A stretch of DNA of 64,000 nt from Alteraurantiacibacter buctensis (GTDB lineage: Bacteria > Pseudomonadota > Alphaproteobacteria > Sphingomonadales > Sphingomonadaceae): assembly GCF_009827655.1 (NCBI RefSeq), contig NZ_WTYV01000001.1, positions 682,001 through 746,000 on the forward strand. The letters are read 5' to 3'. The notes beneath the pieces are model-generated. The model saw only the letters and a program-made list of their open reading frames with translations, searched no databases and was not told the DNA's origin. Each line of letters opens with the position of its first letter. The first letter of the stretch is position 1. Below are positions 14,301 to 61,133 of this stretch, in pieces. The position numbers were made by a program, and so were the translations under genes.

Positions 14301-14435
14301 CAGCCCGGCGTGGCCATCGGCGAGGCGCTGCGCCAGGCGCAACTGGCGCTGATGAACGATGCGGAAACCTCGCACCCGTTCTACTGGTCGGCCTTCGCCG
14401 TGGTGGGTGACGGCGCGGCCGCCCTGCGCCGGTAA
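11373..14435 (+). CDS. Exported TPR-containing CHAT-domain (caspase-like) protein
   Basis: A 1020-aa protein with a probable signal sequence (hydrophobic stretch AAGLLAVLAPLAL, then QQAASQS). An N-terminal unknown region comes first, an alanine-rich helical repeat region consistent with TPRs fills about residues 190-540, and a CHAT domain occupies the last ~300 residues. The CHAT catalytic dyad is intact: His864 in HFATHG and Cys913 in SACNTAS. CHAT domains are clan CD cysteine peptidases related to separase and caspases. Start ATG 11373 follows GAGGAAG; ATG 11403 is possible. The overlap with the upstream barrel gene suggests a paired envelope system. Substrate unknown. Confidence 0.88.
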   Translation: MQADRPRRATMFGRLAAGLLAVLAPLALPQQAASQSVGLRDSVPIGSNGLCEAQIQTPRPGQGLFDRSYQVVCRDAASAVGSLQVLGSGSFEAALAQATGADAQCRDGDSASLPQGLSEARSLVCTRPGNPVERLVLVGRSGGRIYAASGLAVYRDALRLGLTTLATDRQVAGTVEVPLTQAADPQAFARAQAEAISEQTALDEAYRRSNAGNFAEAAEFFTVSASTLTGRSATEAQLNAALQQSNLGNFTQARQLFAEAAPGTRTDPVLARLARNYAAIDALNRASPAGALLALDTPLPELSDSVEASLQLQIDNALSERLAAESGGAQVGGRLTVAERIALLDAQGTYLRASALRRQGDTASADAALRQAYGSILAVREGRVVSMLWLRAQILGELADQAESRGNIAEAEALHGEAGAMVERTYPASPALVTARGQLAGLYARTGRTAEATALYRTMVADSEGTPPASTRRLFAPYFRLLAEQGTQAAAADLFLASQLLQRPGLAQTQAVLARELSAGSDEAAQLFRQSINLTRAVEVLRGEQAQAADRAAQGVQGAATLLAEKTTALEQLRQRQLEVQQALAAYPRYRAVSDPAMTLASLQQALRPGEAYLKVVMLDESAYALMASPDGAQAWRLSVRPAEITAMVATLRDSIAVEEGGQTITYPFEIATARNLAKALFGPALDRLGDVRHLVFEPDGALLSLPANLLVMDDASVDRYLARIADPEADPYDFRGTAWLGRAMEVTTAVSPAAFASVRQARASDARGEYLGLGQNLPLVPGSTAAQVAGTRGGAAGPDAARCTWGSGTWNNPISAAELRTASSLLGGDSRSVEVLTGGEFTDSRLKAMDNLDEFRILHFATHGLVTAPQPGCPPRPALLTSFGDQDSDGLLTFGEIFDLSLDADLVILSACNTASTGGLAASREAGVTSGGDFALDGLVRAFVGAGGRTVVASHWPVPDDYNATGRLIAGFFQAQPGVAIGEALRQAQLALMNDAETSHPFYWSAFAVVGDGAAALRR

Positions 14436-23051: not shown

Positions 23052-23067
23052 CTGATAGCGCTACCAT
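23052..23067. promoter_or_regulatory. Putative LacI-type operator (site 2)
   Basis: CTGATAGCGCTACCAT matches 14 of 16 positions of ATGGTAGCGCTACCAT. It lies 19 bases upstream of the MFS transporter start codon, a position suited to repression. Confidence 0.7.
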
Positions 23068-38143: not shown

Positions 38144-38159
38144 ATGGTAGCGCTATCAA
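38144..38159. promoter_or_regulatory. Putative LacI-type operator (site 5)
   Basis: ATGGTAGCGCTATCAA matches 14 of 16 positions of the shared element. It lies 20 bases before the xylX-like start on the right and 63 bases before the GH43 start on the left, so it may control both divergent units. Confidence 0.7.
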
Positions 38160-38179
38160 TGGGGAGGACAAGAGCCACG

Positions 38180-39304
38180 ATGGCCGACAGTCTGATTTCA
38201 ATTCTGCCCGCGGATTACGCTGCGGGACACTTTCTCGGCCGCGCACAGGGACCGGATGGCCCCTGCGTCATCGCGATTCGCGGTGGCCGCCTGTTCGACC
38301 TGACGCAAGACGTGGCCACCAGCGCCGGGGCCGTGGCCCGCAAGGCCTTTGCCGGCGGCACGGATCTTGGCCCGGTGGAAGCCGGCCTGCCCGCCGGCTG
38401 GACACTGCTCTCCCCCATCGACCTGCAGTGCGTGAAGGCTGCCGGGGTTACCTTTGCCCTTTCCGCCATCGAGCGAGTGATCGAGGAACGCGCGCGCGGC
38501 GATGCGGCCAGGGCGGCGGAAATCCGACAGGGGCTGGAAGACAAGGTTGGCGCGGGCATCCGCGCGGTAGTGCCCGGCAGCGCCGAGGCGGCAGAGCTGA
38601 AGGCGGCGCTGATCGCCGAAGGCATGTGGTCGCAGTACCTGGAAGTGGCCATCGGGCCGGACGCGGAAATCTTCTCCAAGTCCCCCGTGCTCTCCACCGT
38701 TGGTGCCGGTGCCCCCATCGGCGTGCGCAGCGATTCGAGCTGGAACAACCCGGAACCCGAGGTGGTGCTGGTGTGCGATGCCCACGGCGAGATCGTGGGC
38801 GCGGCCTTGGGCAACGACGTGAACCTGCGCGACTTCGAGGGCCGCTCCGCGCTGCTCCTGTCCAAGGCCAAGGACAACACCGCCAGTTGCGCCATCGGCC
38901 CGTTCATCCGCCTGTTCGACGATGGTTTCGGCATCGATGACGTGCGCGTGGCCAATGTGGACCTGCTGATCCAGGGGCCGGAGGGCTACCGGCTGGAAGG
39001 CACCAATGACATGGGCCAGATCAGCCGCGATCCCACCGAACTGGTGCGCCAGTGCCTGTCGGAACACCACTACCCGGATGGCTTCGTGCTGTTCTGCGGC
39101 ACCCTGTTCGCGCCGGTTCAGGATCGTGATACGCCCGGCGCCGGGTTCACCCACAAGGTGGGCGACGTGGTCTCGATCAGCTCGCGCCGCATCGGACGGC
39201 TGACCAACACCGTCACCACATCGCGCGATGCCCCGGCCTGGACCATGGGCATCGCAGCATTCATCCGCAACCTGGCCGTGCGCGGCCTGGTTGACCGCAT
39301 CTAA
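38180..39304 (+). CDS. xylX: 2-keto-3-deoxy-D-xylonate dehydratase (FAH family), XylX-like
   Basis: A 374-aa fumarylacetoacetate hydrolase-fold protein starting MADSLISILPADYAAGHFLG. The metal-binding fold region includes EPEVVLVCDAHGEIVGAALGNDVNLRDFEG-type sequence (read from 38755 on) and SKSPVLSTVG. In the Weimberg pathway XylX dehydrates 2-keto-3-deoxy-xylonate to 2-oxoglutarate semialdehyde. Gene order X-A-B-C matches the Caulobacter crescentus xylose operon, which strongly supports this role. ATG 38180 follows GGGGAGGA; an upstream in-frame ATG at 38144 falls inside the operator and is unlikely. Confidence 0.88.
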   Translation: MADSLISILPADYAAGHFLGRAQGPDGPCVIAIRGGRLFDLTQDVATSAGAVARKAFAGGTDLGPVEAGLPAGWTLLSPIDLQCVKAAGVTFALSAIERVIEERARGDAARAAEIRQGLEDKVGAGIRAVVPGSAEAAELKAALIAEGMWSQYLEVAIGPDAEIFSKSPVLSTVGAGAPIGVRSDSSWNNPEPEVVLVCDAHGEIVGAALGNDVNLRDFEGRSALLLSKAKDNTASCAIGPFIRLFDDGFGIDDVRVANVDLLIQGPEGYRLEGTNDMGQISRDPTELVRQCLSEHHYPDGFVLFCGTLFAPVQDRDTPGAGFTHKVGDVVSISSRRIGRLTNTVTTSRDAPAWTMGIAAFIRNLAVRGLVDRI

Positions 39305-46650: not shown

Positions 46651-48444
46651 TCAGTGGTTATGCCGCGGCAGGCCCTTTTGCGCGGTACCGCGATACTTCA
46701 GGGCAAATTCCATCACCCCGCCCTGGCCAAGCTGTCCGGTTTTTTCGCGGTAGAGTTCTTCCCATGGCGTATTGCTGGCAGGCACCGGCGGAGCCGGTTC
46801 CTCGGCCAGGCGGCGGGCGATTTCGCCTTCGTCCACCAGCGCGTCGCAGCGCGCCCGGTTCAGGTCCACCCGGATCACGTCGCCGTCGCGCAGCCAGGCC
46901 AGGCCCCCGCCAGCGGCGCTTTCCGGCGTGGCGTTGAGCACGGATGGGCTGTCGCTGGTGCCGGACTGACGCCCGTCACCCAGCGTTGGCAGCCACGATA
47001 CGCCGCGCCGGATCATCGCATCGGGCGGCTGCATGTTGACCACCTCGGCGCTGCCCGGCCAGCCGATCACGCCCGCGCCGCGGATCACCAGGATGCAGTC
47101 CTCGTCCACGTTCAGCGCAGGATCGTTGATGCGGTGGTGGTAATCGTCCGACCCGTCGAACACCACGGCGCGCGCCTCGAACACCCCTTCCGCACCGGGG
47201 CGCGAGAGGTAGCGGGTGCGGAATTCCTCGCCGATCACGCTGGTCTTCATGATCGCGAAATCGAACAGGTTGCCCGACAGGACCATGAAGCCCGCGTCGT
47301 GCATAAGCGGATCGGCATAGGGGCGGATCATCTCGCGGTCAGCGCTTTCGCGGCCCGCCACGTTCTCGCCCATCGTGCGCCCGGTGCAGGTGAGGCAATC
47401 GGCCTTCAGCTTGCCCGCCTGCAACAGCTCCCACATCACCGCCGGCACACCCCCGGCGCGGTGGAACCGCTCGCCCAGGTACTTGCCCGCCGGCTGCATG
47501 TTCAGCAGCAGCGGCAGGCGCCAGCCATGTTCGTGCCAGGCACTCAAGGGCAAGTCCACGCCCGCATGCGCCGCCATCGCCTGGATATGCGGCTGGGCGT
47601 TAGACGAACCACCGCAGGCGCTGACCGTGGCAATGGCATTGAGGAAGGCATCTAGCGTCAGGATCTTCGACGGGCGCAGGTCTTCGTGCACCATCTCCAC
47701 GATCCGCCGCCCGGTGCGATAGGCCATCTGCCCGCGCTCGCGATAGGGCGCGGGGATCGCCGCACAACCCGTCAACGACAGGCCCAGCGCTTCGGCCACG
47801 GCGTTCATCGTGCTGGCCGTGCCCATCGAATTGCAGTGCCCTGCACTCGGCGCGCTGCTGGTGGCGCGGTCGAGGAATTCGTCCTCGTCGATCTCGCCCG
47901 CCGCCAGCTTGCGGCGACTGCGCCAGATCACTGTGCCGCTGCCCACCAGCTCGCCTTCGTGCCAGCCGTCCAGCATCGGCCCGCCGGACAGGACGATGGC
48001 CGGGATGTCCACCGTGCTGGCCGCCATGATCTGGCTGGGCGTGGTCTTGTCGCACCCCGTGGTCAGCACCACCCCATCCAGCGGATAGCCGTTGAGCAGT
48101 TCCACCAGCCCCAGGTACAGCAGGTTGCGATCGAGCGCGGCGGTGGGGCGGCGGCAGTTCTCGAAGATCGGGTGGACCGGGAATTCGATGGGAATGCCGC
48201 CCGCGTCGCGGATGCCGTCACGCGTGCGCTTGGCCAGCTCCACGTGGATGCGGTTGCAGGGGGAAAGGTCGCTGCCGCTTTGCGCGATGCCGATGATCGG
48301 CTTGCCGCTGCGCAGTTCTTCCGGAGTGACGCCATAGTTCATGAACCGCTCGAGGTAGAGCGCGGTCATGTCCATGCGGTCAGGGTTGTCGAACCAGTCG
48401 CGGCTGCGCAGCCGGCGAGCGGGACCAGTATTGTCGGCGGACAT
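46651..48444 (-). CDS. xylD: D-xylonate dehydratase (IlvD/Edd family), XylD-like
   Basis: A 597-aa Fe-S dehydratase. Likely [2Fe-2S] ligands are Cys63 (DLSPCNRIH), Cys131 (TTGCDKTTPSQ) and Cys204 (GHCNSMGTAST). The start RSRDWFDNPDRMDMTALYLERF is that of pentonate dehydratases rather than dihydroxy-acid dehydratase. It converts D-xylonate (possibly L-arabonate) to the 2-keto-3-deoxy acid used by XylX. It faces the xylXABC operon tail to tail, so xylD is a separate unit, unlike in Caulobacter. It begins 17 bases after the end of the lacI-like gene and is probably co-transcribed with it. Confidence 0.9.
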   Translation of the reverse strand: MSADNTGPARRLRSRDWFDNPDRMDMTALYLERFMNYGVTPEELRSGKPIIGIAQSGSDLSPCNRIHVELAKRTRDGIRDAGGIPIEFPVHPIFENCRRPTAALDRNLLYLGLVELLNGYPLDGVVLTTGCDKTTPSQIMAASTVDIPAIVLSGGPMLDGWHEGELVGSGTVIWRSRRKLAAGEIDEDEFLDRATSSAPSAGHCNSMGTASTMNAVAEALGLSLTGCAAIPAPYRERGQMAYRTGRRIVEMVHEDLRPSKILTLDAFLNAIATVSACGGSSNAQPHIQAMAAHAGVDLPLSAWHEHGWRLPLLLNMQPAGKYLGERFHRAGGVPAVMWELLQAGKLKADCLTCTGRTMGENVAGRESADREMIRPYADPLMHDAGFMVLSGNLFDFAIMKTSVIGEEFRTRYLSRPGAEGVFEARAVVFDGSDDYHHRINDPALNVDEDCILVIRGAGVIGWPGSAEVVNMQPPDAMIRRGVSWLPTLGDGRQSGTSDSPSVLNATPESAAGGGLAWLRDGDVIRVDLNRARCDALVDEGEIARRLAEEPAPPVPASNTPWEELYREKTGQLGQGGVMEFALKYRGTAQKGLPRHNH

Positions 48445-48461: not shown

Positions 48462-49584
48462 TCAGCCTTCCTGCATGCGTGCGCCGCGCGTGGCCAGAGG
48501 CGGCGCGGCATCACTTTCGCGCCGCACCAGGGTATAGGGCAGCGTCTTGGTCTCGGGCTTAACGCGCTCTCCCAAGCGTTTGGCCTTAAGCATGCGGGCG
48601 GCGGCATCCACCGCCCAGGCCGTCATCTGCCGGATCGGCTGACGCACGGTCGTGAGTTCGGGCCAGATCGAGCTGGCCATGTCGGTATCGTCGAAACCGC
48701 AGACGGTGATGTCATTGGGCACGTCAAGATGGCGGCGGTGGGCCACGGCCACGGTGGCGGCGGCCATATCGTCGTTGGAGGCGAAGATCGCGGTGGGGCG
48801 CGGGTTGACCGACAGCAGCTTCTCCGCCCCGTCCATCCCCGAGCGATAGGTGAAGCGGCCCTGCACGATCAGCCGGTCGTCCTTGGGAATCCCCGCATCC
48901 TGCATCGCCGCCAGGTAGCCGTTCAGGCGCCGGTCGGCGGCAATCTGCTCCGGATTGCCGATGATGAAGCCGATGCGTTCATGCCCCAGGCCGATGATGT
49001 GCTTGGTCATGTCATAAGCGGCCTGGAAATCGTCGATCTGCACTTCGCCCTGCGAACCGGCAGCCTTGCCCGATCCGACGGCGATGGAAATGGCATCCAG
49101 CTCGCTCACCAGTTCCAGCACGGATGCATCGTCGCACAGCGGGGGGGGGCAGGATGAAGCCCTGGATGCCGCCTTCGGCCAGGTGCCTGATCAGCGCCTT
49201 GCCATGGGCAACATCGTCGCAGCTTTGCACAACCAGCTGGATATCGCGCCGGTTGGCCTCGTCCAGCGCGCCCATCAGGAATTCGGCCAGGTAGGACGAC
49301 GAGGGGTTGTCGAACAGCAGCGCCACCCGCGCCTGTTCCCCGCCGGCCAGACTGCGCGCGGCGCGGTTGGGGGAATAGTTGAGCCGGGCGATCGCCTCCA
49401 GCACCTGCTCGCGCGTGGCATCCCGCACGTTGCCTTCGCCGTTGATCACGCGGCTGACCGTCATCGGCGAGCAGTTCGCCTCACGCGCGACGTCGGAAAT
49501 GGTGGGCGCGCCGGCACGGCGGCGAGCGCCGCGCTGCTTGCGCCTGTTGTCGGAGGCCCCTTCGTCAACCATCAGATCGCCCAT
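48462..49584 (-). pseudogene. LacI-family regulator, frameshifted at a homopolymer
   Basis: The N-terminal part (49584 to about 49150) has the LacI helix-turn-helix TISDVAREANCSPMTVSRVI and hinge NRAARSLAG. The C-terminal part (about 49139 to 48462) has the periplasmic-binding-protein-like effector domain (IGFIIGNPEQIAADRRL, AIFASNDDMAAATV, TVCGFDDTDMASSIWPELTT). The halves are in different frames. On the coding strand a run of nine C (49141-49149) would restore the expected ILPPPLCDDASVLELV reading if it had eight. Total length 1123 bases is one more than a multiple of three. It may be a true null, a phase-variable switch, or a sequencing error. It is the obvious candidate to bind the shared operator. 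Confidence 0.85.
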
Positions 49585-49661: not shown

Positions 49662-51725
49662 TCACTGGCCGGGGGCTTCGGGAAAAGCCAGCGAGCGGTA
49701 GTAATCCAGTTCATGTTGCGGCGGGCGCGTGCCCTCGGGCAGCGGCAGGCCGTTGATGCTCTGCCACCAGGCCAGGCTGGCATCGCGCCACCAGCGCGCC
49801 TCGGCCTGCTGGATGACCAGGTTTTCGGCCACGGCACGGAAGCGCTGCGGATCGACGTGGCGTTGCTGCGCGGCCCAGGTATCGGCCATCGCGTCGACTG
49901 CGGCCACGCCGGTGTCATAGCGCCCCACCAGCTCCGCCCAAAGGCTGCGGCCGGACGGCATGGCCTGGTCCCAGCCGACATGGTGGAACCACAGCAGGTA
50001 ATCCGGATCGGCGGCCAGGCCGGCGGCAACCGGAGGGGCATACTGCGCCAGCGCGTTGGAGCCGCTGGCCGTGCGGTCAAACCCGATGCCCTGCCGGTCG
50101 GCGCGGGCGTAGTAACACGGGTTCCACTCCGGCCGCGCCAGGTCGCACACCCAGGGGCCGGGGCCGTAGTGGTGGCCAGTGGCCATCTGGTGCGCCAGGC
50201 CCAGCGGGGTCATGTAATCGACCACCGCCTGCCGGCTGCCCAGCATCATCGGCACGACCGCCTCGACGAATTCCGGCGCGCGGCTGAAGGTCTGCGCGGC
50301 CCACTCGCGCGCGATCTGTTCGCTGGTCAGCGAGGGGTCCCAGGCGAGGCGGCCGAAGGCATACCAGTTGGCCTGGTCGAAATCCGATCCGGTCCAGTTG
50401 CGGTCTGATCCGGTATTGGCAACACCTGCCATGCCCACCGGCTGCACGATCTGCGCCACAGTGCCGCCCCGGCCCGTGTCCGCGTGCAGCACCTCCTCCC
50501 ACATCGGCGCAAGGTAAGCCAGGTGGGTGCCCTGCCCCAGGTATTCCTTGGTGATCTGCGCTTCCAGCATCAGCCGGGTATTGGGCATGGCCCCGAACAT
50601 CGGGTGGAACGGCTCACGCGGCTGGAAGTCGATCGGGCCGTTCTTCACCTGCACGATCACGTTGGGGGCAAACTGCCCGTCCAGCGGCACGAACTCGTCA
50701 AAGGCCTGCATGGCCCGGTCGACATCGTTGTGCTCGGAATAGACGAAGGCGCGCCAGATCACCGTCCCGCGATTGCCCAGCGCTTCGGCCAGCACGTTGG
50801 CCCCGTCTGCGTGGCTGCGGCCATAGTCTTGCGGGCCGGGCTGGCCTTCGGAATTGGCCTTGACCAGGAAGCCGCCGAAATCAGGAATGGCGGCGTAAAT
50901 CTCGTCTGCCTTGGCCCGCCACCAGGCGCGCACTGCGGGATCAAGCGGGTCTGCGGTAGGCAGGCCGCCAATATCGCGGGGCGCACTGAACCGCGCGGAC
51001 AGGAACACGCGGATGCCATAGGGCCGCCAGGCGTCGGCCAAGCGCTTGAGCTTGGCGATATAGCGCGGCTCCAGCATGTAGGCCTGCGCATTCACGTTGT
51101 TCACCACCACGGCGTTGATGCCGATCGAGGCATTGGCGCGGGCATAATCGATCATCCGCTGGTCCAGCCGGTCGGGCAGGTTCCACCAGTCGAAGATTGA
51201 GCGTCCGGCATAGCCTCGCTCAACATGGCCATCGGGATTGTCCCAGTGGTTGAGCATCCTGAGCGGCATGGCGGGGGCGGAGGTGAGGTTGATGGTGCGC
51301 GGGTCGGCACCAAGCGAGAGTTCGCGCAGCAGGGCGTAGGCGCCGTAGAGGCAGGAAATGTGAGACGGTCCGCCGATCCTGATGCCTTGTCTGTCGGTGG
51401 TGACAAAATATTGCTCGCCACCAGTGGGGTGACTGCCGCAATCGATCAGTATGCGTCCATGACCGCCGGGGCGGCTGCGGGCCGGCTCCCCTAACAGGGA
51501 ATGCAAACCGAAGCCCAGTTCCCGGACAGCCGCTTCCAAGGTCGGATTGTCTTCCCGGTTATACAAATCGACCGCAATCTGCGGGTTGAATTCCTCCAAC
51601 CGCTCCAGCGCCTCGCCCTCCAGCGGGGCATAACGCAGCCACAGGTCATACCCGTCCTCCGCCCGCGCCGCGCCGGGCAGCAGGGCCGCCACGGCAAGGC
51701 ACAGCGCGAGCAGGCGGGCGATCAC
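49662..51725 (-). CDS. GH67 alpha-glucuronidase
   Basis: A 687-aa exported alpha-glucuronidase (signal peptide MIARLLALCLAVAALLPGAA). It has the N-terminal beta-sandwich, the (beta/alpha)8 barrel with general acid Glu293 (VKANSEGQPGPQ) and bases Asp366 (NGPIDFQPREPF) and Glu394 (AQITKEYLGQGTHL), then the helical C-terminal domain. The numbering is one residue off the Cellvibrio japonicus enzyme (292, 365, 393). It removes (4-O-methyl)glucuronic acid from the non-reducing end of aldouronic acids. Its start overlaps the halogenase stop by 4 bases, tying the halogenase set to glucuronoxylan use. Confidence 0.94.
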   Translation of the reverse strand: MIARLLALCLAVAALLPGAARAEDGYDLWLRYAPLEGEALERLEEFNPQIAVDLYNREDNPTLEAAVRELGFGLHSLLGEPARSRPGGHGRILIDCGSHPTGGEQYFVTTDRQGIRIGGPSHISCLYGAYALLRELSLGADPRTINLTSAPAMPLRMLNHWDNPDGHVERGYAGRSIFDWWNLPDRLDQRMIDYARANASIGINAVVVNNVNAQAYMLEPRYIAKLKRLADAWRPYGIRVFLSARFSAPRDIGGLPTADPLDPAVRAWWRAKADEIYAAIPDFGGFLVKANSEGQPGPQDYGRSHADGANVLAEALGNRGTVIWRAFVYSEHNDVDRAMQAFDEFVPLDGQFAPNVIVQVKNGPIDFQPREPFHPMFGAMPNTRLMLEAQITKEYLGQGTHLAYLAPMWEEVLHADTGRGGTVAQIVQPVGMAGVANTGSDRNWTGSDFDQANWYAFGRLAWDPSLTSEQIAREWAAQTFSRAPEFVEAVVPMMLGSRQAVVDYMTPLGLAHQMATGHHYGPGPWVCDLARPEWNPCYYARADRQGIGFDRTASGSNALAQYAPPVAAGLAADPDYLLWFHHVGWDQAMPSGRSLWAELVGRYDTGVAAVDAMADTWAAQQRHVDPQRFRAVAENLVIQQAEARWWRDASLAWWQSINGLPLPEGTRPPQHELDYYRSLAFPEAPGQ

Positions 51726-53212
51726 GCGGTGACAGCTCCCGCATAGTCGTCAAGAAACTGCTGGTGCGAAGGCAGCTTGCCCACGTGCCCGGCAATCCCC
51801 TGCGCCAGCGCGGCAAGCGACTGTCCCAGACGCTCCTTGCCGATCATCTGCCCCAGCCCGTGGTGGCCCTGGGGGGTGAGGCCCTGCCCCAGCATCACCT
51901 GCACCCAGCTATCCACGCGGAACAGCTCGTCATTGGCCTGGAAGGCGGTGGCGCTTTCGCGGAACAGGGCGATGCGGCTTTGCAGGCTGCCCGGCAGCGC
52001 CATGTTGCGGCAGTGGTCCCAGAACGGCTCGCCCTCGCGGCTGTTCAGGCAATAGTGCAGCACGATGAAGTCGCGCACCCCTTCCAGCTCGCGGCGGGAA
52101 AGGTCGTTGAACCGGTCGACCAGCGCGGGCGTCACGCCGTTGAACGGGAACAGTTGCGCCAGCCGCGTGACCGCGATCATGATCAGGTGGATCGAGGTCG
52201 ATTCCAGCGGCTCCACGAAGCCGCTGGCAAGGCCGATGGCGACGCAGTTCTTTGCCCAGGTCTTGCGCCGGCTGCCGGAAACATAGCGGATCACGCGCGG
52301 CTCGGTCAGCATCGGGCCGTCGAGCCGGCTCTTGAGCAGCGCCAGCGCTTCTTCATCGCCCAGATGGCTGCTGGCATAGACCAGCCCGTTGCCCACGCGG
52401 GTTTGCAACGGAATCTGCCACTGCCACCCGGCCTTGTGGGCGATGGCGCGGGTGAAGGGCCGCGCGGGGCCGGTGCTATCGGTCTGCACCGCCAGCGCGC
52501 GATCGGTGGACAGCCAGTGGGTCCAGTCCTCGTATCCGGTCTTCAGCGCGCCCTCGATCAGCAGCGCGCGGAAACCGGTGCAGTCGATGAACAGGTCGCC
52601 TTCCACCAGCGCGCCCGATTGCAGCGCCAGCGCGGTGATGAACCCGCTTTCCGGGTCCAGCCTGACCTCAGCAATCCTGCCCTCCACGCGGGTCACGCCC
52701 AGCGGTTCGGCAAACCTGCGCAGGTACTGGCCATAGGCCGTGGCATCGAGGTGGTAGGCATAGTTGAGGGCCTGTTCGCCACCGGTGGCGAACTTGCATG
52801 CTAGCGCCGCCTGCGTCTCCAGGCTGTAGTCCCCGATGTCGCCTGCCACACCCATTGCCCGCGCGGCCAGCCACATGTGCTGGAAATCGGCCAGCCAGGT
52901 GCTGCGGCCCATGGAGCCGAAAGAGTGGAAATAGCGCTCCCCGTCAGCCAGCCAGTTCTCGAAACTGATGCCCAGCTTGAAGCTGGCACCGGTGGCGCGG
53001 ACGAACTCCTGCTCGTCGATCCCCAGGATCTCGTGGAAGCGGCGCGCGGTGGGGATGGTGCTTTCACCCACGCCCACGGTGCCGATCTCGTCGCTTTCGA
53101 CCAGCACGATCTGCACCAACTGGCCCACGGTCCTGGCCAGCATGGCGGCCACCGCCCAGCCCGCCGTGCCCCCGCCCGCGATGACCACCTTCTTCACCGG
53201 TTTGCCAAGCAT
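51722..53212 (-). CDS. Flavin-dependent tryptophan-halogenase homologue
   Basis: A 496-aa flavoprotein of the tryptophan halogenase family. The FAD-binding GGGTAGW (13-19) is intact, catalytic Lys79 (ATGASFKLGISFENW) falls at the same number as in PrnA, the anti-monooxygenase WxWxIP motif is GWQWQIPLQTR, and the Glu of VEPLEST matches PrnA Glu346. All residues for hypohalous acid chemistry appear present. It needs a flavin reductase, none of which is in the window. Homologues beside TonB receptors occur in Caulobacter, Xanthomonas and sphingomonads, and some tested relatives halogenate indole. The real substrate here is unknown and a peptide or protein is possible. Confidence 0.9.
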   Translation of the reverse strand: MLGKPVKKVVIAGGGTAGWAVAAMLARTVGQLVQIVLVESDEIGTVGVGESTIPTARRFHEILGIDEQEFVRATGASFKLGISFENWLADGERYFHSFGSMGRSTWLADFQHMWLAARAMGVAGDIGDYSLETQAALACKFATGGEQALNYAYHLDATAYGQYLRRFAEPLGVTRVEGRIAEVRLDPESGFITALALQSGALVEGDLFIDCTGFRALLIEGALKTGYEDWTHWLSTDRALAVQTDSTGPARPFTRAIAHKAGWQWQIPLQTRVGNGLVYASSHLGDEEALALLKSRLDGPMLTEPRVIRYVSGSRRKTWAKNCVAIGLASGFVEPLESTSIHLIMIAVTRLAQLFPFNGVTPALVDRFNDLSRRELEGVRDFIVLHYCLNSREGEPFWDHCRNMALPGSLQSRIALFRESATAFQANDELFRVDSWVQVMLGQGLTPQGHHGLGQMIGKERLGQSLAALAQGIAGHVGKLPSHQQFLDDYAGAVTA

Positions 53213-53222
53213 CGCATCGCTC

Positions 53223-54269
53223 CTAACGGTTCAGCCGGTTGAGCAGTTGCGCGCGCAGGCGGCGCGCGGTCATGTCGTCCATCGGGCCGAGTGGGCCCCG
53301 GGCGTGCTCGGGCAGGTGGGCTGCGGCCTGCGCGCCATCCCCGAACACGTAGTAATCGAACAGTGCGCGCCACGCCTTCTTCTCTCCCTCTGGCCGGTCG
53401 CGCAGGCTCAGCAGGGCATGAAGCAGGGTGTTGTGCGGCGTATCGATGTGCGACGGAACCGGGTTCCACCAGTAATTGACCATGGCGTTCAGGGGGCCGG
53501 TTGCATCCACCTGGTGCCACCACAGCGCGGGGTAGTAGAGCACATCGCCCGGTGACAGGTCCGCCACCAGCGCCGCCTTCATTGCATCGGCAAAGCGCGG
53601 ATAGCGAGCGAGATCGGGTGCGGCGAAATCGACCATGGTCACCACCTGCCCGCCGGGCGTCGGCTCCAGCGGGCCGGGGTAGAGATTGGCCACCTGGTCG
53701 GGCGGAAACAGCGTGAAACGGCGCTGGCCCACCAGGTTGCACGCCACATTGGCCGACATGTCGTAATGCGCCGCCGCCGTGGTGCGCGTGCCCAGCCACA
53801 GGCTGGCAACCACCGGCTTCACGGCGAAATCGGGATGATCCAGCGGCAGGCGGTTGTCCTGGGCAAAGCCCGGCAGGAACTGCGCCAGGTCGGTCGAGCC
53901 GACATAGATTGCCTCGCTCTCGTCCTGGTCCTGCGTGGCCAGGATCCGGTCAAGCACATCGGCCAGCGGCCCGCGGACGCTGGTGAAGTTGAGGCCGGCA
54001 AGATCGGCCTTGTAGTGGAACCGGCCGCGCACTTCCGGCGGGGCGGTGAACACCGTGACCGGCGCGCCCGTGGCGAAGCGCCGCAGGTAGTCTGCTGCCC
54101 CGCGTGGCCCGCCGTCCAACCCGGCGCGGACGAGCGGCCAGTCTGCCGCCAACCCTTCCAGCACCACCGGCTGCCCGGTGGCAAACAGCTCGTCCCACGG
54201 GATTGCCGCAGGGGATAGGCCCGCCAGCCGGCGCACCGGGGTGCCCCATTCCGGCAGGCCCGCCGCCAT
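53223..54269 (-). CDS. Cupin-like (JmjC-related) protein, second paralogue
   Basis: A 348-aa cytoplasmic cupin-like protein with His168-x-Asp170 (AAAHYDMSANV) and distal His252 (PALWWHQVD), the Fe(II) triad of JmjC-type oxygenases. QRRFTLFPPDQVANLYPGP closely matches the paralogue at 33003. Start ATG 54269 overlaps the SapC stop by one base (TGATG). In this setting the superfamily's usual hydroxylation of a protein side chain is plausible; target unknown. Confidence 0.87.
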   Translation of the reverse strand: MAAGLPEWGTPVRRLAGLSPAAIPWDELFATGQPVVLEGLAADWPLVRAGLDGGPRGAADYLRRFATGAPVTVFTAPPEVRGRFHYKADLAGLNFTSVRGPLADVLDRILATQDQDESEAIYVGSTDLAQFLPGFAQDNRLPLDHPDFAVKPVVASLWLGTRTTAAAHYDMSANVACNLVGQRRFTLFPPDQVANLYPGPLEPTPGGQVVTMVDFAAPDLARYPRFADAMKAALVADLSPGDVLYYPALWWHQVDATGPLNAMVNYWWNPVPSHIDTPHNTLLHALLSLRDRPEGEKKAWRALFDYYVFGDGAQAAAHLPEHARGPLGPMDDMTARRLRAQLLNRLNR

Positions 54270-55021
54270 CAGGCCGCCGCCGCCATGGCCAGCCGCGCCG
54301 CGTGGCGATTGACCAGCGCCTGCACGTTGCCCAGCGACGCCGCGATCATGAAGGCCGATTGCAGGAAGCCCTCGCGGTTCAGCTTCTCCAGCGCCGCCCC
54401 GTCCAGCCCGGCCAGCCGCTCGCGGTCGACCGTAATGGCATTGGCGATGGCGAACACCTCGTGCTCGCCGGTGCGCAGTTCCAGGTTGACCGGGCGCAGC
54501 AGGCCGGCAGCGCTGAAGGCGGCAACCATCGGATCGAGCAATTGGTGGCCCAGCCAGATCGCCCGCAGCACGTCGGCCATTTTCTGCAGGTAGGGCGCCT
54601 GCCCGCCGTGTGGCAGGAACAGCGGTGCCCCCTCCTCTCGGGAGAGGCGCGGATCGGCGAGGTCCACCTGGATCATCGGATCGCCGTTGCCATGCTCGGG
54701 GGCGACGATGCTGAACGGCCCGCGCTGCACCATCAGCGGCACGTGGGCGCTGGTCCAGTTACCTGCCGCGTCAAGGAAGGCGTTCTGCCCCTGCGCCAGG
54801 CCCAGCAGCGCCACGGGGCGGATCTTGCCCTGGCTATCCTCGCGCAGGATGATCGGGAATTCGCGCTGCACGGCTTCGAATTCGGTCGGCAGCACCAGCA
54901 CCTGGTTGACCGCGGAACCTGTCTCCCCCGCCGATCCGGGGCGGATCTTCAGGTCGTGATGGTCGACGTTGTTGAGCAGGACGCTCTCAATCGGAACAGA
55001 CTTGTTCGAAACACTGGCCAT
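54269..55021 (-). CDS. SapC family protein
   Basis: A 250-aa SapC-family (PF07277-type) protein: FPIILREDSQGKIRPVALLG, GQNAFLDAAGNWTSAHVP, GAPLFLPHGGQAPYLQ, LGHQLLDPM. The name derives from the Campylobacter surface-layer locus, but its function is not known. In sphingomonads, caulobacters and xanthomonads it commonly lies with a TonB receptor, a JmjC-like cupin and a tryptophan halogenase homologue, as here. No signal peptide. It is separated from the receptor gene by a strong terminator. Confidence 0.88.
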   Translation of the reverse strand: MASVSNKSVPIESVLLNNVDHHDLKIRPGSAGETGSAVNQVLVLPTEFEAVQREFPIILREDSQGKIRPVALLGLAQGQNAFLDAAGNWTSAHVPLMVQRGPFSIVAPEHGNGDPMIQVDLADPRLSREEGAPLFLPHGGQAPYLQKMADVLRAIWLGHQLLDPMVAAFSAAGLLRPVNLELRTGEHEVFAIANAITVDRERLAGLDGAALEKLNREGFLQSAFMIAASLGNVQALVNRHAARLAMAAAA

Positions 55022-55082
55022 GCCGTCTGGTTACCTTACCCGCGCAATCGGTTGGCCCTGATTGCCACGTCTTGTGGTGATG

Positions 55083-55119
55083 AAAAAGGGAAGGGTTCCT
55101 GTCGCCAAGAACCCTTCCC
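55083..55119 (-). terminator. Rho-independent terminator between receptor gene and SapC
   Basis: An 11-base perfect stem (GGGAAGGGTTC at 55088-55098, GAACCCTTCCC at 55109-55119), 10-base loop, and five T on the minus strand immediately after it. It should stop most transcripts after the receptor gene and leave the SapC-cupin-halogenase-GH67 genes at a lower level unless they have their own promoter, for which there is little room. Confidence 0.9.
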
Positions 55120-55149
55120 CCCTCATTCGTGCCGGATGGCTGGTCCGGA

Positions 55150-58100
55150 TCAGAAGCGGTAGCGGGCGCCCACCAGCACGCGCGGCTCCAGCTCCTGGGC
55201 GAAGAACATCTGGTTCTCGTCACGGCCATAGCTGCGGACCGGTTCGGAGAGGATGTTCACCGCTTCCAGCGAGAACGACACAGCGTCGTTCCAGTCATAG
55301 CTGATGCTGGCGTCCAGCGTGCCGAAGGCATCGAAGAACACCGGGTTGCGGCTGCCCCCGCGGTTCACGCCCGAGAGGAACTTGTCGCGCCAGTTGTAGG
55401 CCACGCGCGCCGAGATCGGACCGGCTTCATAGATGCCGGTGATGTTGAAGCTGTCAGACAGGCCCACCAGCGCGAACACGTCGGTGCCCGGGTTGGAGAG
55501 GATGTCCACGTCAACATCGCCATAGACCTTGGTCAGCGAGCCGCTGACGCCAAAGCCCGTGTCACCGAAGAAGTACTGACCCTGCAGCTCGAAGCCGTGG
55601 ATGTTGCCTTCGCGGTTGTTGATCGGGGTGGAGACTTGGAAGTTGAACAGCGGGTCGGTGGCGTTGGCGATCACGTCGCGCTGGGGCAGGATCGTATCCA
55701 CGAACGCCTGGTTCAGCTGGCCGTTGGCACCAAGGTTGGCCTGGAACTCGGTGGTGGCGGCCGCCACGTTGCCGTTGTTCTTGTCGATCAGCGCAGTCAT
55801 CGTGAACAGGCTGACGTCGCTCAGCACGGCGCCCAGGTTGTTGATCACGTCACGGGCAGCGCCCGACCGCGTGCCGGCAGCGCCGGTGGTGGGATCGCGC
55901 AGGCCGAACAGGTTCTGGTTGATCTGGCCCACGCCCACGAAGTTCGACACGTTCTTCACGAAGAAGGCGGCCGAAACGAAGCTGGTGGGGGCAAAATACC
56001 ATTCCAGCGAGATGTCGAAGTTCTCCGACACCAGCGGCAGCAGGCCGGGGTTGCCCGTGGTGCCACCGGCAACGCCGCCCAGCAGCGTGGGCCGGTCAGG
56101 CGTGTTGGCCGACTGCGAGGCGAACAGGTTGCCATAGTCCGGACGGGCCAGCGTCTTCGAGTACGACACGCGCGCCACCACATCATCCATCGGCTCGATG
56201 CGGAAGTCGATCGAGGGCAGGAAGTTGGTGTACTCGCCCTTGCCGGAGCGCTCGACCAGCGTGGTCGGCACCAGCCTGAGGACGCGGGTGAAATCGTTGT
56301 CCGAATCCCACTCGATCACATCGGGCGCGTTGAACCGCGCAAACGAATTGGTCTGGGTGTTTTCCCACCGCAGACCGGCGACCAGGCCGGCCGGACGACC
56401 GCCCAGTTCACCGCTCCAGTTAAGCTGGGCAAAAGCGGCAAAGATCTGCTCGCCCACCTGGTCGAAATCGCTGCCGCTGACGTTGTTGGGGTTGCCGCGA
56501 CCGGCATAGAGCGGGCCGAACACCTCGGCCAGGTCCACCGCGTTGCCACGGAAGGCCGTTTCGCCGCCAGTCACGTCGTACTTGCTGAACTTGCACGACA
56601 TGCAGAACTCTTCGACCAGGTCGCTGGCGCGGGCGGCAATTTCGCCCACGTTGTTGATGCCCCAGTCACCCAGCGTCTGCTGGGTCTGCACGCGGGCGCT
56701 GGTCATGTTCGAATCGATGTAGCTGGCACCCACGGTGAAGCTGCTGTCGCTGTCGAACTCCCAGTTGAGCGAGCCCATCAACTGGTCCACGCGGTGGCGC
56801 TGGCTGCTGGCATTGGTGCGCAGGATCTGCGTGCCCAGGTCACCAATGTCGAGACGGCCGTTGTTGTTGCCGCGATCGTCGGCCGTGCCACGCACGCCGT
56901 CGGTGCCAAGGCCCGCATCGTTCAGCGTCCAGGCCTGGATCGGCACCGGACCGGAGTAATCGACCGAGTGGCCATCGACTACCGGGGCCCCCATCGAGAA
57001 TAGCGTGGAGCTGGTGCCGTTGCGGGCACCCGGCGTGGACGTGGACAGCGAGTGGTTGCCGTCCAGCATCAGGGTAAAGCCGTCGGCCACTTCCCACTCG
57101 GCGTTCAGGCCATAGGACTGCAGCTCGGTATCGGTGGCGCGGTACTGCTGCTCGAAGCCGATGTCCTTGGTGCCATAGCCGTTGCCTTCGGCAATCCTGA
57201 TGGCGGTGGGCACGGTGTCGGTGGTGTCGAAGGTGATGGAATCGAACGGGCGGTTGAACCAGTTGGTCTGGTCGGTGCGCTGCTCGCTCTGGTCATTGGT
57301 GACGTACATCGCATCGGCAGTGATGGTCAGGGTCTCGACCGGGCGGAACTGCACGGTGCCGGCCACGTTCAGGCGCTCGCGCTCGAACTCGGAGAAGTGG
57401 TAGCGGCTGTCGTTGGGCACGGCCACCAGGGTATTGGGATCGGCCGGCGCGCCGGTGACCACGGTGGCATTGCCGCGACCCGGGAAGCTGGCATAGGGGG
57501 CCACGTTCCAGGCGTTGGAGGTGGCGCTGATCGAGCTGGAATTGCGCACCTGGTAGGCGCCGAACAGCGAGACTCCGAACATGTCCTCGGCATCCGACCA
57601 GGTCAGCACGCCCGACAGTTCCGGATCGACGCGGAAGTCCTCGTTCGACATGTCGTACAGCGCCTTGGCACCGATGCTGCCGCGCAGGCCCGTGCCGGCC
57701 GCTTCCAGCGGACGCTGGGTGACCACGTTGATCGCCGCACCGATGCCGCCCGAGGGGATCGCGGCGCGGCCGGTCTTGTAGACCTCCAGCCGCTGCACGC
57801 CTTCCGAGGCGAGGTTGTTGAAATCGAACGAGCGGCCGGTGGCGCGGCTGAAGTCCACGTCCTGGTCGCCGCCCACGGTGTTGACGAAGGTGGTGGCGAT
57901 CTGGCGGCCGTTCACGGTCACCAGGTTGAAGGCCGGGCCGAAGCCGCGCACGGTCACCTGGCTGCCTTCGCCGTTCACGCGGCTGATCGACACGCCGGGA
58001 ATGCGCTGCAGCGATTCGGCCAGGTTGGTATCGGGGAATTCACCGATATCCTCGGCCGAGATGGCATCGACCACGCCGTTCTCTTCGCGCTTGATGTTCA

Positions 58101-58278
58101 TCGCGCTTTCAAGGCTGGCGCGCACGCCGGTGACCACGATCATGTCGTCACCCGCATCCTGGGCCAGAACCGGCGCGGCAGCGCCCATGGCGAAGGCGGA
58201 AACGCCGACCGACAACAGCGCCCGGCCGGTCCGACCGGCCACGCGACGACGGGCACCAGAAATGGTGGAACTCTTCAT
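55150..58278 (-). CDS. TonB-dependent outer-membrane receptor
   Basis: A 1042-aa active outer-membrane transporter. After the signal peptide (ending PVLAQ) come the TonB-box-like DDMIVVTGVRASLESAM, the plug domain with IPGVSISRVNGEGSQVTVRG and GAAINVVTQRP, and a 22-strand barrel ending in ARYRF with the terminal Phe required for insertion. ATG 58278 follows AGGGGA. The best operator copy in the window lies 89 bases upstream. Position next to GH67, GH10 and GH3 genes suggests uptake of glucurono-xylo-oligosaccharides; specificity cannot be read from sequence. Confidence 0.93.
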   Translation of the reverse strand: MKSSTISGARRRVAGRTGRALLSVGVSAFAMGAAAPVLAQDAGDDMIVVTGVRASLESAMNIKREENGVVDAISAEDIGEFPDTNLAESLQRIPGVSISRVNGEGSQVTVRGFGPAFNLVTVNGRQIATTFVNTVGGDQDVDFSRATGRSFDFNNLASEGVQRLEVYKTGRAAIPSGGIGAAINVVTQRPLEAAGTGLRGSIGAKALYDMSNEDFRVDPELSGVLTWSDAEDMFGVSLFGAYQVRNSSSISATSNAWNVAPYASFPGRGNATVVTGAPADPNTLVAVPNDSRYHFSEFERERLNVAGTVQFRPVETLTITADAMYVTNDQSEQRTDQTNWFNRPFDSITFDTTDTVPTAIRIAEGNGYGTKDIGFEQQYRATDTELQSYGLNAEWEVADGFTLMLDGNHSLSTSTPGARNGTSSTLFSMGAPVVDGHSVDYSGPVPIQAWTLNDAGLGTDGVRGTADDRGNNNGRLDIGDLGTQILRTNASSQRHRVDQLMGSLNWEFDSDSSFTVGASYIDSNMTSARVQTQQTLGDWGINNVGEIAARASDLVEEFCMSCKFSKYDVTGGETAFRGNAVDLAEVFGPLYAGRGNPNNVSGSDFDQVGEQIFAAFAQLNWSGELGGRPAGLVAGLRWENTQTNSFARFNAPDVIEWDSDNDFTRVLRLVPTTLVERSGKGEYTNFLPSIDFRIEPMDDVVARVSYSKTLARPDYGNLFASQSANTPDRPTLLGGVAGGTTGNPGLLPLVSENFDISLEWYFAPTSFVSAAFFVKNVSNFVGVGQINQNLFGLRDPTTGAAGTRSGAARDVINNLGAVLSDVSLFTMTALIDKNNGNVAAATTEFQANLGANGQLNQAFVDTILPQRDVIANATDPLFNFQVSTPINNREGNIHGFELQGQYFFGDTGFGVSGSLTKVYGDVDVDILSNPGTDVFALVGLSDSFNITGIYEAGPISARVAYNWRDKFLSGVNRGGSRNPVFFDAFGTLDASISYDWNDAVSFSLEAVNILSEPVRSYGRDENQMFFAQELEPRVLVGARYRF

Positions 58279-58366: not shown

Positions 58367-58382
58367 ATGATAGCGCTACCAT
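58367..58382. promoter_or_regulatory. Putative LacI-type operator (site 7, best match)
   Basis: ATGATAGCGCTACCAT matches 15 of 16 positions of the shared palindrome. It lies 89 bases upstream of the TonB receptor start. Confidence 0.75.
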
Positions 58383-58468: not shown

Positions 58469-58484
58469 TGTGATCGCTACCACA
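58469..58484. promoter_or_regulatory. CRP/FNR-type half-symmetric site
   Basis: TGTGATCGCTACCACA fits TGTGA-N6-TCACA with one mismatch. It sits midway between the two operator copies, where an activator for either divergent operon could act. It could instead be a decayed LacI-type site, since it shares CGCTACCA with that element. Confidence 0.35.
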
Positions 58485-58628: not shown

Positions 58629-58644
58629 ATGATAGCGCTACCAA
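58629..58644. promoter_or_regulatory. Putative LacI-type operator (site 8)
   Basis: ATGATAGCGCTACCAA matches 14 of 16 positions of the shared element and lies 50 bases before the start of the first GH3 gene of the GH3-GH3-GH10 operon. Confidence 0.7.
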
Positions 58645-58694
58645 TGGTCATCCGCGCCAGTCTTCGAGCGCGCGACGGGAGGAGAGGAATCATC

Positions 58695-61133
58695 ATGCGC
58701 AAGCTGCTGCGCGCCACTTTGGCTGCGAGTGTCGGAATCATGGCTCTGGCAGGGCCCCTGGCCCAGCCGGCCGTATCCCAGAGCGCAGCCGCCACCACCG
58801 CCGCTGCCGCCACTGACACCACCGCCCGCCCCCCGGCCGATGCCCCCTACCGCAATGCCAGCCTGCCCACCGCGGTGCGCGTAGCCGACCTGCTCTCGCG
58901 CATGACGCTGGAGGAGAAGGTGGCCCAGATCATCACCGTATGGGATGACAAGGAGGAGATCCAGGCCGCCGACAACACCTTCGATCCGGCCCGCGCTAGC
59001 GCCCGCTATCCCGATGGCATCGGCCAGATCGCCCGGCCCAGCGACATCGGCGGCCCCACCAGCCCGCGTGTTGTGCGGCGGCGCAATATCGAGGATTCGG
59101 TGCAGTACGTGATCGATGCCCAGCGCTGGGCGATCGAGAATACGCGGCTGGGCATCCCGGTGCTGTTTCACGAGGAATCGCTGCACGGCCTGGCCGCGCG
59201 CGATGCTACGGCTTTTCCGCAGGCCATCGGCCTGGCCTCGACTTGGGATCCGGACCTTGTGCGGGAGGTCAACGACCTCATCGCCGCCGAGGTTCGCGCG
59301 CGCGGCGTCCACATGGTTCTCTCCCCCGTTGTGGACGTCGCGCGTGACCCGCGCTGGGGGCGCATCGAGGAAACCTTCGGCGAGGACCCCTTCCTGGTCG
59401 GCGAGTTGGGCGTCGCCTCGGTGGAAGGCCTGCAAGGGGTGGGCACCGATCCGCACATCGGCGAAGGCCAGGTGCTGGCCACGCTCAAGCACATGACCGG
59501 CCACGGCCAGCCCGAAAGCGGCACCAACGTGGGGCCCGCGCCCATCTCGGAACGCACCCTGCGCGAGATGTTCTTCCCGCCGTTCCACGAAGTTGTCCGC
59601 CGCACCGGCATCAGTGCAGTCATGGCCAGCTACAACGAGATCGACGGCATTCCCAGCCACGCCAACGGCTGGCTGCTGAACGACGTGCTGCGCGGCGAGT
59701 GGGGCTACCAGGGCGCGGTCGTCTCCGACTATTACGCCATCGAAGACCTGCAGCGCGTCCACCATATCGCCGGCTCCTACCGCGAGGCGGCGGAAATCTC
59801 GCTGGCCGCCGGCGTGGACGTGGACCTGCCGCAGGGCGCGGGCTTCCAGCACCTGGTCCAGAGCGTGCGCGAAGGGACCGTCAGAATGGAGGCGGTGGAC
59901 CGCGCCGTGGCTCGCTTCCTGACCATGAAGTTCAACGCCGGCCTGTTCGAGAACCCCTGGCCGGACCTGGCCGAGGCGCAGCGCTCCAACATGGCGGAAG
60001 GCGTGGCCCTTGCCCGCCGCGCGGCCGAGCGCAGCCTGATCCTGCTGAAGAACGACAACGCCACCCTGCCCCTGGCCCTGCCCGAAGCCGGTGGCGAGCG
60101 CCCGACAATTGCCGTGATCGGCCCCAATGCCGATGTTGCCCGCCTGGGCGGCTATTACGGCGAACCGCGCGTGGCCGTGTCCCCGCTGGAAGGGATCCGC
60201 GCGCTGGTGGGGGACCGGGCGAATATCGTCCATGCCCAGGGCGTCGAGATCGTCCAGGGTGACAGCGATTGGTGGGACGATCCCGTGGTGCTGGGCGATC
60301 CGGCAGAGAACCGCCGCCGCATCGCCGCCGCCGTGGAAGCCGCGCGCGATGCCGATACCATCGTGCTGTTCATCGGCGATACCGAGAAGACCAGCCGCGA
60401 AGGCTGGGCCGCCAACCACCTGGGTGACCGCACCGATCTTGACCTTGTGGGCGAGCAGAACGAGTTGTTCAGTGCGCTGAAGGCGCTGGGCAAGCCGATC
60501 GTCGCCGTACTCGTCAACGGCCGCCCGCCCAGCTACCCGCTGATCGCGGCTGAGGCCGATGCGATCCTGGAAACCTGGTACGCCGGGGAACAGCAAGGCT
60601 CGGCCATTGCCGATGCGCTGTTCGGCCGCGTCAATCCGGGCGGCAAGCTGCCGGTCAGCGTGGCGCGCGAGGTGGGCCAGTTGCCGATCTTCTACAATTA
60701 CAAGCCCAGCGCCCGGCGCGGCTACCTGTTTGCCGAAGTCAGCCCGCTGTACCCGTTCGGCTTCGGCCTCAGCTACACCACCTTCGCCTTCGGTGCGCCG
60801 CAGCTTTCGGCCACCACAATCCGTGGCGGCGAAGGCGTGACCGTAACCGTGCCGGTCACCAACAGCGGCAGCATGGCGGGTGACGAGGTGGTGCAGGTGT
60901 ATCTGCGCGACAACATCTCCAGCGTCACCCGTCCGGTGAAGGAACTGGTCGGCTTCCAGCGCGTGACCCTGCAACCGGGCGAGACGCGCCAGGTGGCGAT
61001 CACCATTCGCCCCGATGCCTTCGCCCTGTGGAACCGCGAGATGCAGCGCGTGGTCGAACCGGGCGAGTTCACCATCATGGTCGGCCCCAATTCGGCCGAC
61101 CTGACCAGCGTGGCGCTGACGGTGGCTGAATGA
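58695..61133 (+). CDS. GH3 beta-xylosidase/beta-glucosidase-like enzyme
   Basis: An 812-aa exported GH3 enzyme (signal peptide MRKLLRATLAASVGIMALAG). Family pieces: PVLFHEESLHGLAARDAT, SPVVDVARDPRWGRIEETFG, KHMTGHGQPESGTN, nucleophile Asp345 in AVVSDYYAIE, and a C-terminal fibronectin-III-like domain (VPVTNSGSMAGDEVVQVY). The HGQPESG loop groups it with the following GH3 gene and apart from the BglX-like one at 28027. Next to a GH10 xylanase, beta-xylosidase action is most likely. ATG 58695 follows GGAGGAGAGG. Confidence 0.9.
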   Translation: MRKLLRATLAASVGIMALAGPLAQPAVSQSAAATTAAAATDTTARPPADAPYRNASLPTAVRVADLLSRMTLEEKVAQIITVWDDKEEIQAADNTFDPARASARYPDGIGQIARPSDIGGPTSPRVVRRRNIEDSVQYVIDAQRWAIENTRLGIPVLFHEESLHGLAARDATAFPQAIGLASTWDPDLVREVNDLIAAEVRARGVHMVLSPVVDVARDPRWGRIEETFGEDPFLVGELGVASVEGLQGVGTDPHIGEGQVLATLKHMTGHGQPESGTNVGPAPISERTLREMFFPPFHEVVRRTGISAVMASYNEIDGIPSHANGWLLNDVLRGEWGYQGAVVSDYYAIEDLQRVHHIAGSYREAAEISLAAGVDVDLPQGAGFQHLVQSVREGTVRMEAVDRAVARFLTMKFNAGLFENPWPDLAEAQRSNMAEGVALARRAAERSLILLKNDNATLPLALPEAGGERPTIAVIGPNADVARLGGYYGEPRVAVSPLEGIRALVGDRANIVHAQGVEIVQGDSDWWDDPVVLGDPAENRRRIAAAVEAARDADTIVLFIGDTEKTSREGWAANHLGDRTDLDLVGEQNELFSALKALGKPIVAVLVNGRPPSYPLIAAEADAILETWYAGEQQGSAIADALFGRVNPGGKLPVSVAREVGQLPIFYNYKPSARRGYLFAEVSPLYPFGFGLSYTTFAFGAPQLSATTIRGGEGVTVTVPVTNSGSMAGDEVVQVYLRDNISSVTRPVKELVGFQRVTLQPGETRQVAITIRPDAFALWNREMQRVVEPGEFTIMVGPNSADLTSVALTVAE

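Follow-up and report, generated by a model that had tools for sequence, protein, structure and literature searches.

What would a flavin-dependent halogenase, a cupin-type oxygenase and a SapC-family protein do beside a TonB-dependent receptor? The question is raised by a stretch of 64,000 nucleotides from the alphaproteobacterium Alteraurantiacibacter buctensis (NZ_WTYV01000001.1, positions 682,001 to 746,000; here termed the window and numbered from its first letter), in which the genes for these three proteins lie in a row between a receptor gene and a gene for an alpha-glucuronidase of glycoside hydrolase family 67 (GH67). Comparative analysis of this locus indicates that receptor, SapC, cupin and halogenase form a real and widespread module, for which, judging from the sequences, the tailoring of a polypeptide appears to be the likeliest job. 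We put at about 0.3 the probability that this module, within a xylan/xylose locus controlled by LacI, serves receptor-linked tailoring, with enzymes that modify the receptor precursor.

Open reading frames (ORFs) and profile matches bear out the initial annotation of five consecutive minus-strand genes that overlap, or nearly so, from SapC to GH67. The receptor (55150..58278, ATG at 58278, 1042 amino acids) belongs to the TonB-Xanth-Caul subfamily (TIGR01782, 619.6 bits against a cut-off of 310). A gap of 128 nucleotides, with a strong hairpin and a U5 run, separates it from the SapC gene (54269..55021, 250 amino acids; PF07277, 198 bits against a cut-off of 28.9), the product of which falls into a module-type clade. 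This gene shares 1 nucleotide with that of a Cupin_8, FIH-like putative Fe(II)/2-oxoglutarate oxygenase (53223..54269; PF13621, 240.8 bits), which is followed after 10 nucleotides by the flavin-dependent halogenase gene (51722..53212; PF04820, Trp_halogenase, 612.8 bits). The GH67 gene (49662..51725) opens with GTG; its middle and C-terminal domains score above the cut-offs (PF07488, 458 bits; PF07477, 270 bits) and its N-terminal domain slightly below (23.8 against 24.3 bits). The halogenase and GH67 genes had been described as fused; they only overlap, by 4 nucleotides, which rules out a single gene, and fusions among the module genes were not found in the survey loci either, where 0 ORFs matched two of the four module models.

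Recurrence of the module

The distribution of the module was examined in a survey led by the cupin, from which the best 80 of at least 583 confirmed candidates were taken; these loci are ranked by similarity to an alignment led by the window's cupin and are not a random sample. Individual loci are cited by L-numbers, which label the DNA stretches fetched around survey hits. Within 6.5 kb of the cupin gene, SapC and the receptor are each present in 78 of the best 80 loci, the halogenase in 74 and all three in 71. The order receptor-SapC-cupin-halogenase on one strand is maintained in 64 loci, and a halogenase lies between receptor and SapC in 5; the other 11 are incomplete or otherwise ordered, including two on short contigs (L180, L202). 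Full modules were identified in Sphingomonas, Caulobacter, Asticcacaulis, Hyphomonas, Stenotrophomonas, Lysobacter, Rheinheimera, Paraglaciecola and others, a spread over alpha- and gammaproteobacteria; a betaproteobacterial locus, from Rugamonas, is devoid of SapC.

No constant fifth gene of at least 150 amino acids accompanies the module in these loci, small ORFs not having been searched. The commonest additional neighbour families are LacI (19 loci), GH3 (17) and DUF6445 (13). DUF6445 (PF20043, tested on the L200 gene) is encoded directly behind the halogenase in 11 of the 80, mostly gammaproteobacterial, as at L200:12557-13246, L198, L212 and L223.

An independent test of the halogenase-receptor link, and of that link only, was provided by 12 genomes of the same family that were chosen without regard to module genes. 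Between them they encode 42 TIGR01782 receptors and 26 halogenases, 16 of the latter in two genomes of the window's genus. A receptor lies within 1, 5 and 10 kb of 12, 18 and 22 of the 26 halogenases, respectively, compared with 0.18, 0.42 and 0.71 expected from genome coverage. When halogenases are merged into clusters, 14 of 18 are within 5 kb of a receptor. The initial annotation had held that such sets accompany TonB receptors in several proteobacteria and had proposed a survey of co-occurrence; with 71 complete sets among the best 80 loci, and 22 halogenases near a receptor where 0.71 would be expected, the families do travel together beyond chance.

The full module is a subset of these halogenase-receptor pairs. 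It is found in 2 of the 12 genomes, the source's own and G155, which belongs to the same genus; Cupin_8 is rarer (3 of 12 genomes), and the halogenase is missing from 4 of the 12. In the source's genome, all four receptors that score over the cut-off have a halogenase within 2 kb. A second cluster of this genome, mostly past the window end (L013), consists of a receptor, two halogenases, a Cupin_8 protein, a degenerate halogenase homologue and a further halogenase, accompanied by genes for a GH10 enzyme and a sugar transporter.

The glycan enzymes around the module vary. A first census of flanks covered 18 modules, 17 from the same family and one from the class (86 of 118 genes scanned, 25 commonest of 107 families), and yielded GH3 nine times, GH43 and LacI four times each, GH16 three times, and GH67 and melibiase twice each; among genes scanned singly were a GH1 at L118 and a GH9 at L128. 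A second census, of the nearest flanking genes of named loci (87 of 128 scanned, 25 commonest of 154 families), yielded LacI seven times and GH43, GH3, GH2 and GH9 three times each. GH67 adjoins the halogenase, in the fetched flanks, only in the window and in L115, a locus of the same genus, and lies 5.5-8.1 kb away from it at seven other survey loci; with adjacency so limited, GH67 was rejected as a member of the module. Because the flanking enzymes vary, the module would serve receptors of differing glycan specificity, or receptors in general.

The open PMC literature yielded no description of a set of SapC and halogenase, nor of DUF6445, PF20043, 'SapC family protein' or PF07277, and, among articles on halogenases together with TonB or carbohydrates, PMC1790865, PMC7142613, PMC11337851 and PMC11340318 contained no description of the set, a report elsewhere being possible. 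Carbohydrate utilisation loci of Xanthomonas resemble the present one in that a TonB receptor is embedded in a locus for plant carbohydrates (PMC1790865); in the accessible text of that article, a term search for halogenase, SapC, cupin and tryptophan found none of them.

Hairpin and palindromes around the receptor gene

The five genes had been taken for a single operon. In the gap between receptor and SapC, we detected a terminator-like hairpin followed by T5, a possible attenuator (55083..55119, minus strand); folding of 55060-55140 gives -40.7 kcal/mol (z -6.0), a value equalled in 0 of 200 shuffles. Such hairpins, defined by a stem of at least 8 pairs and then a U-rich run no more than 200 nucleotides after the stop codon, with sub-stems allowed, follow the receptor stop at 59 of 80 receptor-SapC junctions from both surveys, against 2.9 expected from dinucleotide shuffles. 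Control gene ends carry them far less often (SapC 3/94, cupin 4/104, halogenase 9/96); the regions past SapC and cupin stops are mostly coding, and the halogenase ends are hence the fairer control. This conserved hairpin is a new observation of the present analysis. It weakens the notion of a single uninterrupted operon, and one unbroken transcription unit of five genes is not supported. The receptor is probably transcribed mainly by itself, with limited read-through reaching the enzyme genes, or else the enzymes have a separate promoter. Limited read-through would suit catalysts that act on an abundant substrate.

The window's gene content is of the xylan/xylose type: GH67, two divergent GH3 genes, GH43, GH31 and two more GH3 genes, together with a member of an acetylesterase family, an aldose epimerase, an aldehyde dehydrogenase, a short-chain dehydrogenase, a member of the FAA-hydrolase family, a transporter of the MFS family and an IlvD/Edd dehydratase. 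The latter group of genes would fit a Weimberg-type pathway for oxidative pentose breakdown.

The palindrome TGGTAGCGCTATCA has four exact copies in the window, and the genome as a whole contains one other. One copy lies upstream of the receptor (58368..58381, minus strand) and a second in the interval that separates the receptor from the divergent GH3 gene (58630..58643, minus strand). The third (38145..38158, plus strand) is between the GH43 gene (36410-38080, minus strand) and an ORF of the FAA-hydrolase family (38144-39304, plus strand), and the fourth (23053..23066, minus strand) is upstream of the MFS transporter gene (21723-23033, minus strand). A copy with one mismatch is located just beyond the window end, in the receptor/halogenase interval of the next cluster. 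The relaxed form TGNTAGCGCTANCA, likewise present four times in the window, was found in 0 of 100 shuffles. It occurs in 23 of 287 fetched loci (some of which are one place fetched twice), at several of them directly upstream of the module receptor, for example, at L115, L144, L181, L205 and L220. The palindrome presumably is an operator of the LacI type, which it resembles. Given these palindromes and the LacI-family gene behind GH67, induction of the module by glucuronoxylan, as proposed in the initial annotation, is plausible, and the locus looks like a LacI-controlled xylan/xylose regulon that includes the module. The palindromes that tie the module to the xylan regulon are, like the hairpin, observed here for the first time.

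Candidate substrates of the module enzymes

The halogenase of the window contains the motifs that had been ascribed to it, namely Lys79, PLEST with Glu337, and WQWQIP. Among 94 related halogenases of at least 660 bits and at least 450 amino acids, GxGxxG, Lys79 and Glu337 are kept in all 94, and the four positions of WxWxIP in 94, 94, 93 and 90, respectively. The best solved matches are Xcc4156 (PDB 6y1w, 545 bits), 9luq (539 bits) and BrvH (6frl, 444 bits), and the sequence alignment to Xcc4156 is ungapped across both regions that contain the substrate loops of the free-tryptophan halogenases. On this evidence, the window's enzyme belongs to the Xcc4156/BrvH group, with predicted short substrate loops and an open site; it shares the motifs of these indole-halogenating flavin-dependent enzymes, its own activity being putative. 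In the accessible text of the 2020 structure paper (PMC7336383), the native substrates of Xcc4156 and BrvH are given as unknown, free tryptophan is not accepted by either, a peptide substrate is raised, and both act in vitro on free indole and indole derivatives. By analogy, a substrate other than free tryptophan is supported for the window's halogenase.

The in vitro action on free indoles (PMC7336383, same text) favours the alternative of a small aromatic substrate, either imported or made by the host, on which the enzymes would act for detoxification, for tagging or to produce a halogenated signal; we consider this somewhat unlikely. The neighbouring glycan enzymes differ between loci, which counts against one shared compound, with different arenes per locus still conceivable; at L116, L117 and L121, two nearby genes each were scanned singly and neither was a carbohydrate-active enzyme (CAZyme); and no constant biosynthetic partner was found among neighbours of at least 150 amino acids in the best 80 loci. 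The suggestion in the initial annotation of an aromatic group carried by the glycan itself sits badly with the same variation from locus to locus (GH3, GH43, GH16, GH9, GH1, GH2, melibiase, GH67), which makes one aromatic group of glucuronoxylan an unlikely common substrate.

Known peptide halogenases of the MibH type act on tryptophan inside a peptide (PMC8269204, accessible text); no precursor peptide is known for the module, and Xcc4156 shares only 26% identity with MibH (PMC7336383, accessible text). A further alternative, distinctly improbable in our estimate, is that the halogenase fold serves mainly as a flavin oxygenase, for hydroxylation or as a sink for reducing power or oxygen, and not as a halogenase. 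QhpG is a flavin monooxygenase that acts on peptidyl tryptophan, and the window's enzyme matches the QhpG NCBIfam equivalog weakly, at 29.9 bits against a cut-off of 240, which lends the oxygenase some credit, as does the occurrence in some modules of a second halogenase-like type with WxWDIG. The invariance of Lys79 and Glu337 in the 94 relatives, with WxWxIP in at least 90 of them, argues for halogenation. Some loci encode the second type in the interval from receptor to SapC or next to a different receptor; L131:10204-11799 and L106:10638-12347, both with Lys and Glu kept, are examples. We rejected the possibility that this type is an inactive pseudoenzyme: Lys and Glu are present in 23 of 24 lower-scoring halogenases and WxWDIG in many of these, the exception being L013:10889-12394, which is devoid of GxGxxG, Lys and Glu. 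A tryptophan halogenase also appears as one hit in a table of colony-morphology genes of a freshwater Sphingomonas, in the accessible text of PMC11340318.

The cupin retains the HxD...H iron triad noted at the outset. Leaving out cupins of less than 290 amino acids, His168 and Asp170 are present in 105 of 105 sequences and His252 in 104 of 105. The nearest solved chains by sequence are FIH (73 bits) and JMJD5 (62 bits), an asparaginyl and an arginyl hydroxylase, respectively, which are distant relatives sharing the triad. Because both hydroxylate protein side chains, this relationship supports, by analogy, protein side-chain chemistry for the cupin. The same relationship is compatible with modification of another polypeptide, for instance a partner of the TonB/ExbD type, a regulator, or a peptide whose gene lies elsewhere, with an activity then matched to the receptor. 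Cytoplasmic enzymes would fit such a cytoplasmic target, and the persistence of the candidate receptor tryptophans in modules without a halogenase gene (4 of 4 examined) also speaks for it; the absence of a constant fifth gene of at least 150 amino acids from the best 80 loci, small ORFs aside, speaks against it, and on balance we regard this possibility as somewhat unlikely.

The SapC of the module is a specific one. A tree of 61 rows was built from the window, its own genome and other genomes, two L097 fragments of less than 140 bits being left out; its 60 loci were chosen by hand with weight on second SapCs, and the share of module members is not a frequency. The 19 module SapCs group in a single supported clade, joined by just one further row (L123), and the 41 others have no cupin or halogenase in the fetched stretches. 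The module label changes 2 times on this tree, whereas shuffles give 16.4 changes and none of 500 reached so low a count. Standalone SapCs thus belong to the same Pfam family, PF07277, in a separate clade, without the halogenase and cupin in those stretches. At least one SapC of either kind is encoded in 98 of 99 genomes of the same family, and nothing constant was found next to the standalone genes, the largest neighbour family occurring in 7 loci. At L123, the SapC falls in the module clade, and receptor, cupin and halogenase were not recognised in the 20-kb stretch. The AlphaFold2 model of SapC (mean pLDDT 94.6) was searched against PDB and BFVD at an E threshold of 0.001 without a match (the best values were 0.68 and 0.15, respectively), from which neither a new nor a known fold follows; the best VIA-align result was Z 2.1 over 45 residues, and the SapC profile found PDB sequences at a best E of 0.34.

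The receptor is modelled by AlphaFold2 (pLDDT 85.7, pTM 0.84) in a form that we read as 22 strands with short periplasmic turns. In a tree of 41 receptors (1 of 42 dropped), those linked to halogenases cluster, with 3 label changes against 11.9 in shuffles (0 of 500 as low). We compared 91 module receptors with 27 unlinked ones, counting positions as conserved at 95% or more and as rare below 20%. The module receptors have 113 conserved positions, of which 23 are rare in the unlinked receptors, including all four conserved tryptophans; rarity in unlinked receptors thus applies to 4 of 4 tryptophans, against 19 of the remaining 109 positions (Fisher p 0.0014, in a test made once the list had been seen). 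These residues, all encoded on the minus strand, are Trp340 (57259..57261; 91/91 module receptors) and Trp963 (55390..55392; 88/91), each predicted at the extracellular end of a strand, and Trp539 (56662..56664; 90/91) and Trp657 (56308..56310; 89/91), predicted in extracellular loops. In the model, 6 of the 13 receptor tryptophans are on the extracellular side, and the chance of 4 out of 4 would be about 0.02 by a simple draw (15/715). The conserved tryptophans may be either sugar-stacking residues or targets of modification.

If the receptor is the target, the module would work as follows. The receptor would be made in excess, and read-through past the hairpin would supply SapC, cupin and halogenase at lower, catalytic levels. 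Both enzymes would work in the cytoplasm, the halogenase with FADH2 and bromide or chloride and the FIH-like oxygenase with iron and 2-oxoglutarate, and would modify polypeptide side chains, SapC serving as a recognition or holding factor. The likeliest polypeptide would be the receptor precursor before export, with Trp 340, 539, 657 and 963 as candidate sites, and GH67 would be a passenger specific to the lineage, through which the breakdown of glucuronoxylan is coupled to the module. We tentatively favour the receptor as the likeliest single target, because it lies within 6.5 kb of the cupin gene in 78 of the best 80 loci while the flanking CAZymes vary. The complete scheme, in which sugar TonB receptors are halogenated and hydroxylated prior to export by a dedicated outer-membrane receptor tailoring system, with SapC as adaptor and the attenuator setting the ratio of enzymes to receptor, is unlikely as a whole.

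Several observations weigh against the receptor as target. Among the 42 TIGR01782 receptors of the 12 genomes, 14 have a halogenase within 5 kb and 28 do not, so that such receptors work without it. We know of no modified protein. The enzymes, read by eye, have no evident signal peptides, and the receptor, which functions in the outer membrane, would therefore need to be modified before its export. The extracellular tryptophans may simply stack on sugars, and 56% of the barrel residues are read as extracellular side, on which base the chance of 4 out of 4 would be about 0.1. Loss of the tryptophans was looked for in the four halogenase-less modules L120, L156, L159 and L161, and none was seen, all four residues being kept in each. 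The module receptors are related, and their shared residues may reflect ancestry; mirror-tree correlations, at 0.78-0.85, carry no species-tree control. The genome of L120, however, holds a halogenase elsewhere, at L128. In L106, a module with another halogenase arrangement, two of the four tryptophans are missing.

If such a receptor tailoring system exists, it would amount to genome-encoded protein halogenation spread over alpha- and gammaproteobacteria and, with the receptor as substrate, to a new kind of bacterial outer-membrane protein modification. The module recurs with one defined class of receptor, with a particular SapC clade and with a conserved hairpin, and this narrows the halogenase substrate to a short list.

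Neighbouring genes in the window

Behind GH67, on the minus strand, lie the gene for the LacI-family regulator (48462..49584), which is divided between two reading frames at nine consecutive C, and that for the IlvD/Edd-family sugar-acid dehydratase (46651..48444). The frame change is around 49141-49149, the sole C/G run of at least 8 in the window, and could be either a sequencing error or slippage; the homologue at the same-genus locus L115 is in one frame (14829-15953). On the other side of the module, the first of the two divergent GH3 genes occupies 58638..61133 on the plus strand, with an unsettled start codon in an ORF that opens at 58470.

A lone Cupin_8 gene (33003-34022, plus strand) starts 18 nucleotides behind a GH3/ExoP gene (30453-32984). 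It keeps the triad and has neither a halogenase nor a TIGR01782-type receptor beside it. Farther away, the window encodes a CHAT-domain protein with a weak TPR match (11229-14435, plus strand).

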